Shown here: positions 15,962 to 26,215 of the stretch, piece by piece
How positions within the stretch are numbered: the first letter of the stretch is position 1
Layout: every line of letters begins with the position of its first letter
Origin: Streptomyces actuosus
GTDB taxonomy: Bacteria; Actinomycetota; Actinomycetes; Streptomycetales; Streptomycetaceae
NCBI RefSeq assembly: GCF_016921115.1
Contig: NZ_JAFFZS010000005.1
Coordinates: 248,001 to 312,000, forward strand
Direction of reading: 5' to 3'
DNA: 64,000 nt
Notes under the pieces: model-generated
Seen by the model: the letters and a program-made list of their open reading frames with translations, nothing else
The model's database searches: none
Told to the model about the DNA's origin: nothing
Program-made: the position numbers and the translations under genes

Positions 15962-16267
15962 GCGCGTCGCCGATCGCGCCCGGCCCGTCCGGTCGGGCGC
16001 CCCGCCACCGGTGACCCTGACGGCTGCGCCTCCCTGCCGTGCCGAGTCGATCCTGCGCGATACGCGCTGATCCGGCGCGCCTCGCGCGCGGGACGGAGTG
16101 CCCTCCGTCGCCGTGCCCGCCCGGCCCGGACGATTGGCCGAAAACACCTTCTTCCGCTGGAACGGCCGACTCGGCGTGGCGGCCGTGTGACACTACGGGA
16201 GCGTTGCACGCAGTAAGGGGAAGTGCGGGCTCCGTATAGGGACGGCGCCCCGTCTAGGGAGGCGTGG
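15962..16267. other. Spacer without gene
   Basis: About 300 bp between the hexosaminidase and the next plus-strand gene. Short GC palindromes such as GGCGCGCC occur near 16075-16095 and could end transcription. The promoter of the following gene should be at the right end. No ORF is convincing. Confidence 0.35.
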
Positions 16268-16825
16268 ATGAGCCTGGTGGACCTCATCTCTCAGGCCGAC
16301 GACCGCGGGCTGGCCGCGAGCGGATTGGCTTGTTTGGATCGGTGCGTGCCGCTGCTGGGTGGCGACGACGAGACACTGCGGCCCCTGTGGGGCAGCCTCG
16401 CGGAGGGCGTCGGCGACGACGTCTGGGGCACTGCCCTGGAACAGGTGCGCGGAAAGCTCGCCGGATCGGAGGAGCCCGGCACGGACGAGCCTGTCCAGCT
16501 GGCCCGGCGGATGCTCTCCGCCGCGCCCGACGCGCCGTCCGCCGAGGGGATGCGGCTGTGGGCCGACGCCTGCTCGGTGGCCTCCCTCCAGATCCACCGG
16601 CTGCTCGACCCCGCCGAGGACGCGGGCAGCGTCGATGCCCGCCGGGAGGGCCGCACGGACGGCATGTCGCCCCTCGTCGCGGCCGAGCTGCGCCGCCAGG
16701 TCACCGTCCTGGAGGTGCTGGCCGGGCACGGGCCGACCGGGCTGCGCCGGGCCCTGGAGGTCTCCACCGAGGGGCGCCGCGTCCTGCGGGCCGTGGTGTC
16801 CCGCAGGGCCCGCGGGCTCGGCTGA
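16268..16825 (+). CDS. Conserved actinobacterial protein of unknown function
   Basis: This is a 185-residue soluble protein, acidic in its N-terminal half and Arg-rich at the end (VVSRRARGLG). It appears mostly helical, with no membrane segment, cysteine cluster or known catalytic motif. The ATG at 16268 follows AGGGAGG by about 5 nt and gives MSLVDLISQADDRG. It is convergent with the DUF1877 gene 14 bp away. I do not recognise the family and assign no function. Confidence 0.65.
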   Translation: MSLVDLISQADDRGLAASGLACLDRCVPLLGGDDETLRPLWGSLAEGVGDDVWGTALEQVRGKLAGSEEPGTDEPVQLARRMLSAAPDAPSAEGMRLWADACSVASLQIHRLLDPAEDAGSVDARREGRTDGMSPLVAAELRRQVTVLEVLAGHGPTGLRRALEVSTEGRRVLRAVVSRRARGLG

Positions 16826-19794: not shown

Positions 19795-20726
19795 CGGCGG
19801 GAGCGCTCCGGGACCGGGACGACGCCGCGCCGGCACCCGACGAGGCGTCGCCGACGCGGGGCGCCGCCCCGCGCCGTCCGCCCCGGTGGCCGCGGGCGGC
19901 GCGGGGTCGCGTGGGCGGTGCCGGGACCGTGCGGCGGCGGAGCAGCGAGCGGCGGCGCTCCCGCCGCGGGGCCCGGGAGGATGTCGGTGTGCGCCCGCAG
20001 CGGGAGGCCGGCCTCTGTCCCTCGCTCGTGTGCCGCGGAAAAGGGGGCGCGGCACGGTGCGAGGACCGTTTCCCGCCGCGCCGTTCCGGGGGGAGACGAA
20101 GGGCGCGGCGGGAGGTGCGGGGTCTCCCGCCGCGCTCCCCGCGGGAGGGCGGGGCCGGACGGCGGAAGAGGGGGTTCCCACCGCGCCGCCCGTCAGAGGA
20201 GGTGGAGGCGGCACGGTGGGAGACTCGGACAGCACTTCCACAGCGGACGGACACCCGGAAACGTCACTCGGCGGCAGCGAGGCCCCGTCGCGCGGCTCCA
20301 CGCGACCCCGTGCAGCCCCTCCCCCGGCCCTCCAGGCGCCGCACGCCGCATCCATGACCGAGGGGCCTGTGTGGGGCCTGTATGGCGTGAGACACACCTG
20401 TGACCCGTGATGCTCCGGGTGTCCCGCGCGCTGGGAGATGCAGGGGCAGTGAAGGCCCGCCCCGATGCCGAGCGAGAAGGGACGGCCCTGGCGCGCAGTC
20501 GGTGAGGGGTGCGGACGCGCCGCCCGCCGTGCGGCGGAGATGCTGATCGTCGCGGGGGAAGGCCCGAGGAGGAGACCTGACGCCCTGTGACACTTCTGTG
20601 AGAGCGGACGCTGTTGAGCGTGTAGGCGTGGCCGCGGACGGAGCGACGCGGACGGCGGCGGCGCAGGATGCGCCGTACGGCGGCCGTACGGCGGCGGCCA
20701 CAACCCGGTACGAACGAGGACAGTCT
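19795..20726. other. 930-bp non-coding or unrecognised stretch
   Basis: Very GC-rich, with many CCGCCGCG-like phrases at 19850-20230. Frames are open on both strands but give Arg/Pro/Gly-rich sequence with no domain. Near 20587-20602 GTGAC-N6-GTGAG is one base from the known AfsQ1 box (GTNAC-N6-GTNAC), upstream of the ECF sigma gene. Otherwise I see nothing. Confidence 0.35.
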
Positions 20727-21359
20727 TTGGGCCAGGGAGGCAAGCCCCGGCGCGCGCAGGCGTACGACGGGGAACTCGGCGCGGCGGTCGAACGGGCCCA
20801 GGAGGGGGACGAGGCCGCGTTCGCGGCCGCGTACCGGATCGTGCAGCCCGGTCTGCTCGGATATCTGCGGGGCCTGGTCGGAGAGGACGCCGAGGACGTG
20901 GCCTCCGACGCCTGGCTGGAGATCGCCCGCGACCTGGGGCGCTTCAAGGGCGACGGGGCGGGTTTCCGCGGCTGGACGGCGACGATCGCCCGGCATCGGG
21001 CCCTGGACCATCTGCGCCGCCAACGCGTGCGGCCCCGCCCGGCGGTGCTGGAGGCGGACGTCCTGGAACTGCCCGGCACGCACAGCACCCACGAGCAGGC
21101 ACTGGAGTCGATCTCCACGGAACGGGCCCTGGACATGGTGCGCGGGCTGCCGCGCGACCAGGCCGAGGCGGTGCTGCTGCGTGTGGTCGTCGGTCTGGAC
21201 GGCCCGGCCTCCGCGCGCGTCCTCGGCAAGCGCCCCGGCGCGGTGCGCACCGCGGCCTACCGAGGGCTCAAGCGGCTCGCCCGCGAGCTCGGCGTCGCGG
21301 GCGCGGCGGGCGAGGGTGTGACGGATGACGGGTCGCGGACGCTGGGGGAGTCGAAGTGA
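20727..21359 (+). CDS. ECF sigma factor, module 1
   Basis: This is a 210-residue sigma-70 family factor of the extracytoplasmic function class. Region 2 spans about residues 20-90 (DEAAFAAAYRIVQPGLLGYLRGLVGEDAEDVASDAWLEIA, FRGWTATIARHRALDHLRR); region 4 spans about 125-185 (ERALDMVRGLPRDQAEAVLLRVVVGLDGPASARVLGKRPGAVRTAAYRGLKRLA). The TTG at 20727 is chosen because GAGGA lies 7 nt upstream and LGQGGKPRR begins just before the domain. Upstream GTG codons lack a ribosome site. It is followed by an overlapping small ORF and a membrane protein, parallel to the module at 23156. Confidence 0.85.
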   Translation: MGQGGKPRRAQAYDGELGAAVERAQEGDEAAFAAAYRIVQPGLLGYLRGLVGEDAEDVASDAWLEIARDLGRFKGDGAGFRGWTATIARHRALDHLRRQRVRPRPAVLEADVLELPGTHSTHEQALESISTERALDMVRGLPRDQAEAVLLRVVVGLDGPASARVLGKRPGAVRTAAYRGLKRLARELGVAGAAGEGVTDDGSRTLGESK

Positions 21360-21577
21360 GCGGCGTCGGAGACGACTGCGACGCCCGCGGCACGTACGGA
21401 TCGAACCGACCGAACCGGTCGAGCGGATCGTACGCCCGGTACGGCCCGCAGGGCACGAGCCCGAATGGAACGTTCGGCTCCGCTCGGTCGTCCGTGACAC
21501 ATGGACGACACGGATCGCGCAGATCACTTGGATCATTGACACCGCACACGGACAGGGACGGAAACCGACATGGGTGA
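21356..21577 (+). CDS. Possible 73-residue ORF between sigma factor and membrane partner
   Basis: GTG 21356 overlaps the sigma stop codon (GTGA), and the ORF end overlaps the ATG of the membrane protein at 21570. The product would be Gly/Ser/Arg/Asn-rich (VSGVGDDCDARGTYGSN start) with no recognisable domain. The tight overlaps at both ends suggest translation through this stretch, but codon bias is weak. It could be only a spacer. Confidence 0.3.
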   Translation: MSGVGDDCDARGTYGSNRPNRSSGSYARYGPQGTSPNGTFGSARSSVTHGRHGSRRSLGSLTPHTDRDGNRHG

Positions 21578-22424
21578 ACGGCTGAGCGGCGGCGGCACCT
21601 CCGGCCGCCGGCATGCGCACCCTGACGCCGTCTCCGGGCACCCGTACACGGACGGCGACGCCGGGCTGGAGGCGCTGATCGCGGCAGCCGTGCGGCAGGA
21701 CGTCATCGACGCCGAGGCCGAGCAGCGGGCCGTGGCGGCCTTCCGCACCGCCCGGGACACCGGCGCCCACCGCGCCCGCACCAGGCGACGTGACGACTGG
21801 CGTCCCCGGGAGCGGCGCGCGCGGCTGTCGATGCGGGCCACGCTCTCGGTGCTGGCGGCGGGGCTCACCCTGGGCGGGGTCGCCTACGCGGCGATGGGTC
21901 CCGGCGCCTCCCCGGACGGCGACGATGGCACGGGCGGGTCGCGTCCCGGCACCAGTGCCCCCGACCACGCCCAGCAGCCGTCCACCTCCGCGCCCTCGGC
22001 CACCGAGTCCTCGGCCGCGTCTGCCGCCTCCAGCGCCTCCAGCGCCTCCGGTGGACCCTCCCACCCGGAATCCGCCCAGGACGCCGAGGCCCACTGCAGC
22101 GCCTACGAGCAGGTCAAGGCCCAGGGCCGGGTGCTGGACGCGCCGGCGTGGCAGCGCCTGGTGGCCGCCGCGGGCGGCGAGGACGAGGTGGAGGCCTACT
22201 GTGCGAGCGTGACGGCCACGGCCGTACCGTCCGCCGGCCCGGGCACCTCCCTGCCGTCCGCGGGCGCCGACCGGGCCACGGCGAGGCCGGACCGCACGCC
22301 GGCCGACAGCTCAGGCGGCACCGGTGCGGACGACGGAGCCGGCGACGCGGCCGGGAACGGCACGGGCAACGACGGGACGCCGGCCCCCACTGCGACGCGG
22401 GGCGGCACCGGGAGCCGGCCGTGA
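21570..22424 (+). CDS. Single-pass membrane protein with two-Cys outer domain (likely sigma partner, module 1)
   Basis: This is a 284-residue protein. A charged cytoplasmic part (1-88) is followed by one membrane helix at about 90-108 (ATLSVLAAGLTLGGVAYAA), a Ser/Ala/Pro linker, and a small outer domain with Cys176 and Cys211: HCSAYEQVKAQGRVLD then EDEVEAYC. The same layout and pattern recur in the product of 23830, so the two are paralogues. Position after an ECF sigma gene suggests an anti-sigma or co-regulator, but the zinc-binding HxxxCxxC of ZAS anti-sigmas is absent. The ATG at 21570 follows CAGGGACGG by about 8 nt. Confidence 0.7.
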   Translation: MGERLSGGGTSGRRHAHPDAVSGHPYTDGDAGLEALIAAAVRQDVIDAEAEQRAVAAFRTARDTGAHRARTRRRDDWRPRERRARLSMRATLSVLAAGLTLGGVAYAAMGPGASPDGDDGTGGSRPGTSAPDHAQQPSTSAPSATESSAASAASSASSASGGPSHPESAQDAEAHCSAYEQVKAQGRVLDAPAWQRLVAAAGGEDEVEAYCASVTATAVPSAGPGTSLPSAGADRATARPDRTPADSSGGTGADDGAGDAAGNGTGNDGTPAPTATRGGTGSRP

Positions 22425-23155
22425 TCGGCCCCGGGGGCTTCGCCGGACGCGGTCGGCCGTACGGACGGCCGTGATCAGCCGGCCGCACCGGCAGCCGTGA
22501 TCAGCCGTTCTCGGCAGCGAATCCGTCGTTCTCGACGGTGAGCCGGCGGTGAATCGGCACCGGACCGGCACCGAACCGGCGATGGATCAGCCGTGGGCGG
22601 CCGTGCCGGTGTGCCACGGCCTCGCCGGGCGCAGGCCGCCGCCGGAGCGGCGCGGTCCCCCACGCGGGATGTCCGGGCAAGGAGCGACCGGCCCGCGAAC
22701 ACGCGCGCCGAGAGGGCCGAAAGGGCTTGCCCGGGAGCGCCCGGCGCACCCCCTGGAACGGCCCGGGAAGAAGACCCGGCGCCGTGTTCCGCGGGCGGAT
22801 CCAGGCGGCCGGGCGGGCCTGCCGGCCTCCGCCGGGGACGCCCTCCGGTCTGTCGAGCCGGTGGCCGGTACGCACTGCCAAGGCAACGGCCGGGGCCGCC
22901 ACCCCCCACAGGAGAGGCCCCGGCCGTCGCGCGGCACGGGCCGCGCGGCGACCCGTACTCTCTACAGCGCCGAGAGTGCGTTTTCTGTCACACCCCGCGC
23001 GCACGGCTCCTCATCACGAGATAGTTGCATCTTGTACGGACGTGGACGAGCGGGGGTTTCGCGTCGTAACGTGCCTTTCGCGCCGGACCGCGGGGGGCCC
23101 GGATCAGCGCAGACGCCAGCGGTCTTGAAACCGCGACCATCGATCGAGGAACCAG
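22425..23155. other. 730-bp gap between the two sigma modules
   Basis: Contains repeated CCGTGATC/GGCCG phrases at 22425-22560, the hairpin at 22886-22927, and a relatively AT-rich promoter-like patch at 22975-23070 before the second sigma gene. No convincing gene is seen on either strand. Confidence 0.4.
22886..22927. terminator. Hairpin, probably terminator of sigma module 1
   Basis: A perfect 12-bp stem ACGGCCGGGGCC (22886-22897) with GGCCCCGGCCGT (22916-22927) and an 18-nt loop. A second GC-rich hairpin follows at about 22927-22955. It lies far (460 bp) after the membrane-protein stop. Confidence 0.5.
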
Positions 23156-23830
23156 GTGCTGGGGGACGACGCGGAGCTGACCGCCGCGGTGCTTGCGGCA
23201 CAGGACGGGGACGAGACCGCGTTCCGGACTGTGTATCGCGCGGTGCACCCACGGCTGCTCGGATACGTACGGACACTCGTCGGTGAATCCGACGCCGAGG
23301 ACGTGGCTTCCGAGGCCTGGCTCCAGATCGCGCGCGACCTGGCACGGTTCAGCGGGGACGCGGACCGCTTCCGCGGCTGGGCCGCGCGCATCGCCCGCAA
23401 CCGCGCCCTGGACCACGTCCGGATGCGCGGCCGCCGCCCCGCCGTCGGGGGCGACGAGACGGAACTGACCGGCCGGCCCGCCGAGTCCGACACCGCGGGC
23501 GAGGCCATCGAGGCGCTGGCCACGGGCCGCACCCTCTCCCTCATCGCCCGGCTGCCGCAGGATCAGGCCGAGGCCGTCGTGCTGCGCGTGGTCGTGGGCC
23601 TCGATGCCAAGACCGCGGCCGAGACGCTCGGCAAGCGGCCGGGGGCCGTCCGTACGGCCGCCCACCGCGGGCTGAAACGACTCGCCGAACTCCTGGGCAC
23701 CGGCTCGGACGGTGATCCGGAATCGGCCGGCGTGCTCGAGGCACTGCCCACCCCGCGAGAACCGCGCACCCGTGCGGTGACGTCCGCCGGTGTGACGCAT
23801 CGCCGCGCGCGGACGCAGAAGGACATGTGA
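23156..23830 (+). CDS. ECF sigma factor, module 2
   Basis: This is a 224-residue ECF sigma factor closely related to the product of 20727. Region 2: DETAFRTVYRAVHPRLLGYVRTLVGESDAEDVASEAWLQIA, then FRGWAARIARNRALDHVR. Region 4: TLSLIARLPQDQAEAVVLRVVVGLDAKTAAETLGKRPGAVRTAAHRGLKRLAELL. A ~50-residue tail of low complexity follows. GTG 23156 has GAGGA 5 nt upstream. The stop overlaps the next ATG (TGATG), so it is translated together with its membrane partner. Confidence 0.88.
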   Translation: MLGDDAELTAAVLAAQDGDETAFRTVYRAVHPRLLGYVRTLVGESDAEDVASEAWLQIARDLARFSGDADRFRGWAARIARNRALDHVRMRGRRPAVGGDETELTGRPAESDTAGEAIEALATGRTLSLIARLPQDQAEAVVLRVVVGLDAKTAAETLGKRPGAVRTAAHRGLKRLAELLGTGSDGDPESAGVLEALPTPREPRTRAVTSAGVTHRRARTQKDM

Positions 23831-24909
23831 TGGCCGACGAGCAGTACAGGTGGCTGGACCGCGACACAGCAGAGCGCTTGCTGCGCGGAGAGCCGCTCGA
23901 CGCAGTCGACGCCGATGCCCGGGACGAGGCCGAACGCCTCGCCGAGGCTCTGGGTGCCCTGTCCGCCACACCCGCCCCGACCAGCACCGAACTTCCCGGC
24001 GAGGCCGCCGCGCTGGCCGCCTTCCGGGCCGCTCGCGCCGGGTCCGCCGAGCAGCACGCCGGTGCCCCGCGCACCGGCGGCCACCGCTCGGGCGCCTCCC
24101 GCGCCGACGCCGGCCTCATCCGTCTCGGCGGCACCGGACATCCCTCCGGGCGGGTCCGTCGGGGCCGCCACGTGCGCCTGGGTCTGGCCGCCGCGCTGGC
24201 CGTCTGCACGGTCGGCGGAGTGGCGGTCGCGGCCGGAACCGGAGTCCTGCCGTCGCCCTTCGGCGGCCCCGCCGGACCCGGCCCCGCCGTCTCCGTGTCG
24301 GCCGCCGACACCCCCGGGCGCGGTTCTTCCGCGCCGTCGCGGGGCGCCACCACCACGCCCGACGGCGGGGCGACCGGGTCCGCGGGCCCGGACACCGCCC
24401 GCGGCGCGGCCGGCGGTGCCACGCCCGCGCCGAGCGGCTCCGCGGTTCCGGGCGGCACCGGTGCCGCCCCGCCCGGCGCCACCGCGGCGTGCCAGGACCT
24501 GAGCTCGGGCCGGGACCTGGACGACGCGCGCCGCCGCTTCCTGGAGTCGGCGGCCGGGGACGCCCGCCGTGTGTGGACGTACTGCAAGGACGTCCTGAAC
24601 AAGGCGGGCAAGGCGCTCGGCACCGACCGCCGGCCGGACGGCACCGGGAGCACCGGGTCGGGCACCCGCAGCGGCGGCAGGGGCCACGGCACCGGCGGCG
24701 CCGGCAAGAGCGACGACGACGACCGCGACGGCTCAGACCGCCGCCGGCACGGCCACGGCCACGGCGGCATCTCGGGCGCTTCGGGAGGCGGCAGCGGCCG
24801 CGACTCCGGCGGGGGCCACGGGTCCGGCGGTGGCACGTCGAGCGGCGCCGACGGCGGCCGGGGCAGCGGGCACGCCGGCGGCGGCCACAGTGGCGGATAC
24901 TCCGAATAA
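23830..24909 (+). CDS. Single-pass membrane protein with two-Cys outer domain and Gly/His-rich tail (module 2)
   Basis: This is a 359-residue protein starting MADEQYRWLDRDTAERLL. The cytoplasmic part (1-115) is charged; one membrane helix lies at about 118-137. An Ala/Pro/Gly/Thr linker leads to Cys221 and Cys252 (CQDLSSGRDLDDARRRF ... VWTYC), matching the outer domain of the protein at 21570. The last ~90 residues are Gly/Ser/His/Asp-rich (DDDDRDG, RRRHGHGHGG) and could bind metal or simply be flexible. It is translationally coupled to the sigma gene at 23156. Likely a dedicated regulator or sensor of that sigma, but no known anti-sigma motif is present. Confidence 0.7.
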   Translation: MADEQYRWLDRDTAERLLRGEPLDAVDADARDEAERLAEALGALSATPAPTSTELPGEAAALAAFRAARAGSAEQHAGAPRTGGHRSGASRADAGLIRLGGTGHPSGRVRRGRHVRLGLAAALAVCTVGGVAVAAGTGVLPSPFGGPAGPGPAVSVSAADTPGRGSSAPSRGATTTPDGGATGSAGPDTARGAAGGATPAPSGSAVPGGTGAAPPGATAACQDLSSGRDLDDARRRFLESAAGDARRVWTYCKDVLNKAGKALGTDRRPDGTGSTGSGTRSGGRGHGTGGAGKSDDDDRDGSDRRRHGHGHGGISGASGGGSGRDSGGGHGSGGGTSSGADGGRGSGHAGGGHSGGYSE

Positions 24910-25060
24910 GGCGTCTGACCAGCGAAAACGCAACTCGTCGAAATTTTTCCGCGAGGGGTGTGACGTTTTCTGGGCCACGAGCGCAGTAATGAGTGAGCCG
25001 ACTGGTCATCGGCCGTAGCACGGAGCCGGGGTTCCCCCCGTACCTACGGCACGTGCACAT

Positions 25061-25099
25061 GGCGCGGGCGGGACACGTTCCCCCGGTCCCGCCCGCGCC
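25061..25099. terminator. Bidirectional terminator between convergent genes
   Basis: A perfect 14-bp stem (25061-25074 with 25086-25099) with an 11-nt loop sits between the sigma module 2 membrane protein and the convergent L,D-transpeptidase gene. Confidence 0.75.
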
Positions 25100-25135
25100 C
25101 TCAACTTCTCCTCGCCCTCCCGACCCGACGGCGCC

Positions 25136-25993
25136 TCACCAGTACACGACGACCTTGTCGCCGGTGCGCACGTCGCCGAACAGCCGCGCGATCGCCGCCT
25201 CGTCCCGCACGTTGACGCACCCGTGCGAGCCGCCCGCGTATCCGCGCGCCGCGAAGTCGTACGAGTAGTGCACGGCCTGGCCGCCGCTGAAGAACAGCGC
25301 GTACGGCATCGGTGAGTCGTACAGTGTCGAGACGTGGTGCCGGGACTTCCAGTAGACGCGGAACACCCCCTCGCGGGTGGGCGTGTACTGGGCGCCGAAG
25401 CGCACCGGAAGCGTCATGACGGTCCGCCCGTCGATCATCCAGCGCAGCGTCCGGCTCGTCTTGCTGATGCACAGCACCCGCCCGGTCAGGCAGCGCGGGT
25501 CGGGTGCCGCGGCCGGCTGACCGCCCATCAGGTACAGCTCCCAGCGGCCCGGCTCGTGCGTCATGCGCAGCAGCCGCTGCCAGGTGACGGTGTCCACCGT
25601 GCCGGTCCGGGGCAGCCCGCGCTTGCCCTGGAAGCCCCGCACGGCCTGCTCGGTCAGGTCGTCGTACGTTCCCGTGGGTCCGTCGAGGAGCCAGGCCACC
25701 TGCCGCAGCCGCGCCTGTAGTTCGCGCACGTCCAAGCCGCTGTCGCCGGGCGCCCACAGGACGGCGGGCGGCGCCGCGGTGGTGCCGGTCCCGCCGTCGC
25801 CGGGCTTGCCGTCGCCCGAGCCCCGGCCGGGGCCGGGCGAAGGCGGCGCGGGCGGACGGCCGGAGATGTCGATGTGCACCGGTGACCGGTGGCCGCCGTC
25901 CGTCCCGCCGTCTTGGTCCGCCCTCTGCACGGTGCAGCCGCACACCACCGTGAGTGCCGCCACGGCCGCGAGCGCGGCGCCTGCTCTCCCCAT
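25136..25993 (-). CDS. L,D-transpeptidase lipoprotein with peptidoglycan-binding domain
   Basis: This is a 285-residue cell-wall enzyme. The signal peptide ends in a lipobox-like VCGC (about residue 20), so it is probably lipid-anchored. Residues ~80-140 form a PG_binding_1 domain (LDVRELQARLRQVAWLLDGPTGTYDDLTEQAVRGFQ). The C-terminal YkuD domain carries the catalytic SHGCVNV motif preceded by a conserved His in AVHYSYDFA. It should make 3-3 peptidoglycan cross-links or attach wall polymers. The ATG at 25993 has GGGGAA 5 nt upstream. A GTG 15 nt earlier is an alternative start. Confidence 0.9.
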   Translation of the reverse strand: MGRAGAALAAVAALTVVCGCTVQRADQDGGTDGGHRSPVHIDISGRPPAPPSPGPGRGSGDGKPGDGGTGTTAAPPAVLWAPGDSGLDVRELQARLRQVAWLLDGPTGTYDDLTEQAVRGFQGKRGLPRTGTVDTVTWQRLLRMTHEPGRWELYLMGGQPAAAPDPRCLTGRVLCISKTSRTLRWMIDGRTVMTLPVRFGAQYTPTREGVFRVYWKSRHHVSTLYDSPMPYALFFSGGQAVHYSYDFAARGYAGGSHGCVNVRDEAAIARLFGDVRTGDKVVVYW

Positions 25994-26215
25994 GCCCGTT
26001 CCCCGCACTCTCCCGGCCACCGGTGGCTCCGTCGGCGCACGTCCGGCCCGGCCGTCACCCGAGATGTACCCCACGGATGACGCGTTGCGAACGGCACGGC
26101 ATCGTTGTGAGGAAGGTCCCAGCGTGGGGCACTCCACCCGGGCGCACGAGCGCGGCTACAGTCCGTGGCGAGGGTCGGGCCGTACTGACAAGTAGCAAAG
26201 GAGCGGGGAGCGATC

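Follow-up and report, generated by a model that had tools for sequence, protein, structure and literature searches.

In Escherichia coli, sigma-E acts together with the small RNAs MicA and RybB. Among anti-sigma factors, about 44% of class I domains lack the zinc motif (PMC7406223) and RsbN defines a class III (PMC8103513). A study of three extracytoplasmic function (ECF) sigma genes of Streptomyces venezuelae reports that other ECF genes have membrane partners of unknown family beside them (PMC11256431). In S. coelicolor, 59 sigma factors contain region 2 together with region 4; by a 2022 count, 26 sigma factors had been characterised, 12 of them with a known target gene (PMC9205884). We analysed a 64,000-nucleotide stretch of the S. 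actuosus genome (8.45 Mb in 305 contigs; contig NZ_JAFFZS010000005.1, positions 248,001 to 312,000), here called the window, in which two ECF sigma genes, sig1 and sig2, are each followed by the gene for a membrane protein, as1 and as2. These genes probably form two paralogous pairs of ECF sigma factor and membrane anti-sigma factor, belonging to one actinomycete family, in a circuit that would drive its own anti-sigmas and two small RNAs.

The core of the locus consists of four genes:

20727..21359, + strand: sig1, ECF sigma factor with regions 2 and 4, TTG start (Pfam Sigma70_r2 7.4e-13, Sigma70_r4_2 1.4e-8)
21570..22424, + strand: as1, membrane partner of sig1, 284 residues (cytoplasmic helices, one transmembrane segment, stalk, two-Cys domain)
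23156..23830, + strand: sig2, ECF sigma factor, GTG start (Pfam r2 7.2e-16, r4_2 1.1e-11)
23830..24909, + strand: as2, membrane partner of sig2, 359 residues

Both sigma proteins score above the Pfam cut-offs for r2 and r4_2 with no region 3 listed, the pattern by which we class them as ECF sigma factors, and they are 59% identical across sig2 residues 5-189. An earlier sequence-only reading of the window had called them paralogues sharing regions 2 and 4, each followed by a one-helix membrane protein, and both statements agree with what we find: each partner lies on the same strand as its sigma gene and has a single hydrophobic segment (residues 92-110 in as1, 117-135 in as2). The gap between sig1 and as1 is 210 nt, and the as2 ATG overlaps the sig2 stop codon.

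The pairs are widely retained in the genus. With sig2 as the sole query we assembled the best 80 named Streptomyces loci among the matches listed, in which its orthologues are 84-92% identical; tblastn over these loci finds as2 in 79/80, as1 in at least 62/80 and sig1 (at about 78% identity or more) in at least 64/80, the last two counts being lower bounds from retrieved flanks of 5 kb or less. An unrooted tree of 41 sigma sequences places the Streptomyces sig1 (9 rows) and sig2 (10 rows) proteins in separate, well-supported groups, so the pair goes back at least to the origin of the sampled Streptomyces species. Sigmas of other families fall apart from these groups on long, poorly resolved branches, and the bootstrap had not settled. 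Locus L069 carries its sig1-as1 pair in inverted orientation, downstream of the sig2 module; thus, the modules can move separately.

Profiles built from the partners only were searched against 246 actinomycete genomes (22 Streptomyces and 224 others). The as2 profile finds as2-like proteins in 21/22 Streptomyces genomes and weak matches (E 2e-8 to 0.01) in 20/224 others, and the as1 profile matches at 1e-15 or better in 11/22 Streptomyces. A profile of the outer two-Cys domain matches in 81/246 genomes at E 0.05, many of them by chance; the set that we count comprises the 50 proteins found at E 1e-5 or better, with weaker matches dropped (including that in G069, 1.1e-5) and several G074 pieces of one protein counted once. 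A sig1/sig2-like ECF gene lies directly upstream on the same strand in 43 of these 50 cases, 2 are fused to the sigma, 4 have none and 1 lies at a contig end. For other genera alone, 17 of the 23 proteins have the upstream sigma and 2 are fused. Co-occurrence of the partners with ECF genes in other genomes, on which the sequence-only reading had staked its proposal, is thus recovered by the two-Cys profile alone. The fusions come from two families: L223 (520 aa) and L214 (550 aa) each join sigma, transmembrane segment and two-Cys domain in one continuous open frame. For its sigma part, L214 exceeds the Pfam cut-off for region 4; the corresponding part of L223 falls below that value and is supported by a phmmer score of 40.7 bits. 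These fusions are the best sequence evidence that the partner may act on the sigma factor. Judged from the profiles, the partner is a real family found in Streptomyces and, weakly, in other actinomycete families.

The second line of evidence is a promoter-like element, GT[AG]AC-N17-CGC[AT]G, which occurs at six sites in the window:

20586..20613, + strand: 5' of sig1, TGTGAC-N17-CGCTG; in 54/63 loci
21317..21344, + strand: within the 3' end of sig1, 5' of as1; in 58/63 loci
22965..22992, - strand: 5' of sig2, TGTGAC-N17-CGCTG as at sig1, heading RNA candidate 1; in 79/80 loci and 20/22 sampled Streptomyces genomes
23791..23818, + strand: within the 3' end of sig2, with 11 nt between it and the as2 ATG; in 78/80 loci
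24959..24986, + strand: 3' of as2, TGTGAC-N17-CGCAG, heading RNA candidate 2; in 59/79 loci and, by exact pattern, 17/22 sampled genomes
16186..16213, + strand: 5' of a gene for a 185-aa protein; same site in 21 loci

The locus reaches beyond 20727-24909, with an element and RNA candidate at 24959-25103 and a further element at 16186. The spacing is specific: across the 80 Streptomyces loci, spacers of N12-16 and N18-22 give at most 1 locus per class. The strict form TGTGAC-N16-RCGCWG has 10 matches in the S. actuosus genome, 6 of them inside 8.8 kb of this locus; the 4 others are at chance level, because a reversed control pattern also gives 4 matches. Outside Streptomyces, 21 locus records (97.5 kb in total, with one locus represented twice) contain GT[AG]AC-N17-CG[CT][AT]G 16 times, against 0-4 times for other spacings. 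On this sequence evidence, the element predates the genus Streptomyces. Of 73 Streptomyces as2 genes, 67 have the end of the element 11 nt ahead of their start codon, 3 have it 8 nt ahead and 3 lack the element; of 20 partner genes of other genera, 12 have it ending 10-11 nt ahead of the start. These 12 include an orphan partner, L215, for which the fetched 6 kb contain no such sigma gene. Alignment of 76 loci shows a second strongly conserved block upstream of sig2, at about 23010-23085 (around GTTGCATCTTGTACGGAC...GTCGTAACGTGCCTTTCGCG), which may be the promoter of sig2 or a leader element.

Two of the elements are directly followed by conserved, potentially structured sequences with approximate ends:

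22875..22960, - strand: RNA candidate 1, about 85 nt, two hairpins, loop CCTCTCCTGTGGGGGGTGG, immediately following the reverse element upstream of sig2
24986..25103, + strand: RNA candidate 2, three hairpins, the last terminator-like, directly behind the element 3' of as2

Candidate 1 has a match in 22/22 sampled Streptomyces genomes (E 2e-11 or better; only a 43-nt core in G234), adjoins sig2 in all 22 and has the element 74-77 nt before the loop in 20/22. Outside Streptomyces, 31 genomes gave short matches (E 9e-7 to 1e-3), which we took as GC-rich chance. Candidate 2 is present as a single copy in each of the 22 Streptomyces genomes, in 0/224 others at E 1e-5, and in 74/80 loci. The predicted pairing is retained with compensating change: in candidate 1 (55 rows), 98.9% of pair cells hold and 5 pairs (8 cells) changed on both sides, and in candidate 2 (34 rows) 98.6% hold and 8 pairs (15 cells) changed on both sides, with 0/500 shuffles in each case, counts that are not probabilities. 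In slid controls, 38-61% of pair cells hold for candidate 1 and 35-47% for candidate 2. Neither candidate matches an Rfam family above the gathering score; matches to miRNA, Atu_C4 and P6 families all fell below cut-offs and were taken as chance. In the 6C RNA of actinomycetes, the hairpin loops contain at least six C. Candidate 2 has CCCCCC in one loop, yet no 6C family was listed for it in Rfam at E up to 10. The conserved loop of candidate 1 holds GGGGGG, such that the two RNAs could pair with each other.

The conserved hairpins could instead be transcription terminators or leaders, and not independent small RNAs. Both end in a long GC-rich hairpin, and their positions, between as1 and sig2 for candidate 1 and between as2 and a convergent gene for candidate 2, would suit such a role. 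However, a promoter-like element heads each of them at a near-fixed distance, and the loops are conserved as well as the stems. At the variable pairs of candidate 1, moreover, G.U outnumbers A.C by 78 to 5 cells, which fits minus-strand transcription away from sig2, although the fold was itself predicted on the minus strand, which biases the count that way. We consider this alternative unlikely, while giving it more weight than those discussed below.

The outer parts of the partners are defined by a pair of cysteines:

22095..22202, + strand: two-Cys domain of as1 (Cys176-Cys211), from orthologue Cys counts and alignment
24490..24585, + strand: two-Cys domain of as2 (Cys221-Cys252), mean predicted local distance difference test (pLDDT) of its blocks 90-97

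The sequence-only reading had located these four cysteines correctly. The cytoplasmic parts of as1 and as2 contain no Cys, and one extra Cys of as2, Cys126, sits within the membrane segment. Among complete orthologues with an assigned start (13 of as1 and 5 of as2 without one were omitted), a Cys pair 35-36 apart is present in 45/49 as1 proteins, the other 4 being without any Cys, and a pair 30-33 apart in 68/69 as2 proteins; because they are kept to this extent, the pairs are not due to chance. Exactly two Cys occur in 37/49 as1 and 59/69 as2 orthologues. In an alignment of the two-Cys domain alone (27 rows that we picked), the Cys pair is invariant. The GR-LD pattern noticed earlier between the cysteines is present, but the better conserved core is CRAY ... 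L..AAGG...V..YC, in which AAGG is conserved about as strongly as the cysteines. AlphaFold2 (70 rows) folds this part of as2 into a confident three-helix unit, residues 217-259 (helices 217-225, 232-242 and 245-259; block pLDDT 90-97), with the cysteines in the first and third helices and low confidence between the unit and the cytoplasmic helices. The as1 model has a similar three-helix two-Cys unit.

The sequence-only reading suggested that the domain senses thiol/disulfide state outside the membrane. A redox sensor of this kind would account for an invariant Cys pair that is kept in nearly all orthologues and is in most of them the only pair of cysteines. However, invariant secreted Cys pairs are usually structural, and two further observations argue in the same direction: conservation of the AAGG core is close to that of the cysteines, and the cysteines lie in helices one and three of a compact predicted unit, as a structural staple would. 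An as1-like partner, L229, has lost the two-Cys domain altogether. A structural disulfide explains the two outer cysteines no less well; thiol sensing, though possible, is not the likelier of the two, and we give redox sensing a small chance.

The cytoplasmic parts of the partners are also conserved. Invariant as1 positions (24 aligned rows) include R72 and R74-R78 (RDDWR), before the membrane, and those of as2 (alignments of 22 and 70 rows) include W8, E15, L18, G20 and G57-E58. The as2 model has cytoplasmic helices at 11-19, 28-45 and 58-78 and the as1 model has two; the last cytoplasmic helix of as2 and its distant relatives carries the motif EL.GE.AA.AAFR.AR. In hhalign comparisons, the cytoplasmic profiles of as1, as2 and distant partners match one another at 95-99% probability. 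Two as2 orthologues, L043 (5657-7033, +) and L075 (5657-7138, +), carry the GE.AALAAFR.AR helix in tandem, in 3 and at least 4 copies, respectively.

Does this domain represent a new anti-sigma class, as the sequence-only reading ventured? The motif of zinc class I anti-sigma factors (ZAS, for zinc anti-sigma), HxxxCxxC, is indeed missing from as1, as2 and all 49 as1 and 73 as2 orthologues, as that reading had noted for the window. No Pfam family scores above cut-off for as1, as2 or ten distant relatives, nor does any NCBIfam family for as1 or as2, the two proteins that scan covered, and a PDB sequence search gave no convincing match for the partners. A fold search with the as2 model returned mostly ribosomal or otherwise unrelated helices and nothing above chance (best Foldseek E 3.1; VIA Z 2.9), with no power to exclude a class I fold. 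The domain thus has no match above cut-off in the family libraries searched, but the missing zinc motif does not itself imply a new class, because zinc-free anti-sigma factors are common in class I and RsbN already defines class III. Profile comparison gave no convincing signal of homology to RsbN itself: hhalign gave 1.9% for as1, 44.9% for as2 (in the transmembrane segment only) and 23.6% for the distant partners (11 columns). The RsbN used was that of S. actuosus itself, the gene after bldN (bldN identified by TIGR02952), which matches the 91-residue chain 6dxo_D at 3e-30; we take this chain to be RsbN, whereas the database table labels it BldN.

The lack of similarity to known anti-sigma domains in Pfam, NCBIfam, PDB sequences and the RsbN profile could also mean that the partner is not an anti-sigma factor but a membrane or wall protein, co-transcribed as a target of the sigma. 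Such a role would suit a partner gene with its own promoter-like element, as well as the two-Cys proteins L213 and L216, which are without a recognised cytoplasmic domain. Against it, the helical cytoplasmic domain common to as1, as2 and distant partners fits direct contact with the sigma factor, and so do the overlap of as2 with the sig2 stop and the two sigma-transmembrane-two-Cys fusions. We think a target protein improbable, slightly more so than redox sensing.

Least probable is that the element is another regulator's site or in part a coding constraint at the sigma C-terminus: two of its six sites fall on the conserved ends (VT....RT) of sig1 and sig2, but four of the six are non-coding, the 17-nt and 11-nt spacings still hold where the site follows the sigma open frame (L130, family f18) or where no such sigma is present (L215), the variant boxes AGTAAC, CGTAAC and GGTAAC are typical ECF -35 boxes, and at the in-gene sites the codons GTG ACG are kept in 75/76 sig2 and 50/52 sig1 cases although GTC is a frequent Val codon (385/1287 in sig2, 478/1025 in sig1). 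Because GTG ACG is kept almost without exception, the DNA, and not the protein alone, is constrained at these sites.

Several observations weigh against a sigma/anti-sigma circuit as we propose it. Four two-Cys proteins are without such a sigma nearby: L213, L216, L224 and L215. L224 is a fragment and L215 has both domains; in L213 and L216 no cytoplasmic domain is recognised either, and L229 conversely carries the cytoplasmic domain and no two-Cys domain:

L213 2945-3832, + strand (G048), and L216 1320-2225, - strand (G022): two-Cys domain and membrane segment, no recognised cytoplasmic anti-sigma domain, no such sigma nearby
L229 5689-6453, - strand (G173): as1-like partner keeping the cytoplasmic domain, without the two-Cys domain, with a charged, repetitive tail end

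The structure models have low predicted template-modelling scores (pTM 0.28 and 0.42); the sig1-as1 read-through chain, at pTM 0.42, gave no readable interface. The element was not found by pattern at 8/20 partner genes of other genera (families f8, f12, f23, f31 and f37), for five of which the starts tried were limited to the first Met codons. Its distance to the as1 start varies widely, from 48 to 282 nt, and two of the six sites lie inside coding sequence. The 80 loci come from one genus and are not independent, and the RNA alignments contain part of the distinct sequences found (55/85 for candidate 1, 34/86 for candidate 2). Both candidates are GC-rich hairpins and could have a terminator role. 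A literature search found no binding or transcription data for these genes.

The neighbourhood and some distant relatives provide further context:

25136..26137, - strand: L,D-transpeptidase (YkuD and peptidoglycan-binding domains), convergent neighbour of as2, kept in 70/72 loci with enough sequence
16268..16825, + strand: conserved 185-aa gene, candidate member of the circuit, in 29/80 loci within the retrieved flank
L228 2233-3834 (the same as L152 1093-2694), - strand, genome G074: partner with three two-Cys repeats, beside a second sigma-partner module

The L,D-transpeptidase hints at the cell wall, with no evidence that the circuit controls it. The 185-aa protein has no Pfam match above cut-off. 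The three-repeat partner belongs to family f31, in which another tandem sigma-partner pair occurs and the two-Cys repeats of this partner are consecutive. From gene order we presume that sig1 and sig2 correspond to S. coelicolor SCO4864 and SCO4866, a provisional identity. Only if it is right are two expression reports relevant, in which SCO4866 goes up and SCO4864 down upon acid shock (PMC2631018) and SCO4866 goes up in early germination (PMC4367926).

The family, its linkage to sigma genes, the fusions, the fixed-spacing element and the conservation of the RNAs can be read from the sequences themselves, and they suggest the following model. The cytoplasmic helical domain of the partner (three predicted helices in as2, two in as1) would hold the sigma factor at the membrane. 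Outside, a disordered stalk would bear the small three-helix domain, with its two invariant cysteines most likely disulfide-linked, and this domain may act as the sensor that receives an envelope signal. Once released, the sigma factor would start transcription at GT[AG]AC-N17-CGC[AT]G promoters, its putative targets being sig1, as1 and as2 (giving negative feedback), the two flanking small RNAs and the 185-aa protein. The two RNAs would then form a post-transcriptional arm, by analogy with E. coli sigma-E and its RNAs MicA and RybB. The broadest form of this proposal, in which a private-promoter circuit with an undescribed anti-sigma domain and a two-Cys three-helix sensor extends across actinomycete families and includes, in Streptomyces, two sigma-driven small RNAs as an envelope-response arm, is one that we hold tentatively, at somewhat less than even chances.

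For most sigma factors of Streptomyces neither signal nor targets are known, and here the sequence alone yields a testable wiring of sigma, anti-sigma, promoter and RNAs. If correct, this wiring brings two domains, one an anti-sigma domain and the other a sensor, that are absent from the family libraries searched. The promoter rule would also help to spot members in other actinomycete genomes, even where sigma and anti-sigma genes have become separated, and with two small RNAs common to the whole genus, post-transcriptional control in Streptomyces would become directly testable. A putative hidden stress circuit is thus now open to laboratory test. In the libraries and literature searched (excluding supplementary tables and the 2015 and 2021 ECF classifications), we found no description of the anti-sigma domain, the sensor domain, the promoter rule or the RNAs; the protein part of the circuit may in part already be catalogued in the ECF classification.

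The proposed circuit shares features with several known systems and is identical to none of those compared here. As in E. coli sigma-E with MicA and RybB, an ECF sigma factor is proposed, by analogy, to drive small RNAs and its own operon; the targets and neighbours differ, and transcription of the RNAs here is predicted from sequence. Among conserved Streptomyces small RNAs, scr4677 of S. coelicolor likewise lies beside an anti-sigma gene (PMC3896431; PMC8388888), but the anti-sigma (SCO4677) and the locus are different, scr4677 being located between SCO4677 and SCO4676. The fusions L214 and L223, with sigma, transmembrane segment and outer part in one chain, resemble ECF52 (the SCO4117 type) and other sigma factors with a C-terminal membrane fusion. 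Whereas ECF52 carries a zinc finger (PMC8999054; PMC5826349), the outer part of L214 and L223 is the two-Cys domain, and the Pfam scan listed no zinc-finger family for either fusion. Class I anti-sigma factors (ASDI, for class I anti-sigma domain: RsrA, RseA, RskA and RsiW) are, like as1 and as2, encoded with their sigma and mostly membrane-bound, and zinc-free versions exist (PMC7406223); as1 and as2 differ in having no HxxxCxxC and no Pfam or PDB sequence match. RsbN with sigma-BldN (ASDIII, PDB 6dxo) is again a single-transmembrane anti-sigma factor beside a Streptomyces ECF sigma, with N-terminal helices, a membrane segment and an outer domain, a layout that the helices of as2, as predicted by AlphaFold2, resemble. 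However, hhalign found no cytoplasmic sequence relation of RsbN to as1 or as2 (at most 45%, in the transmembrane segment), and its outer domain and motif are different. As proposed, as1 and as2 work like known membrane anti-sigma systems, so the kind of system is itself a known one.

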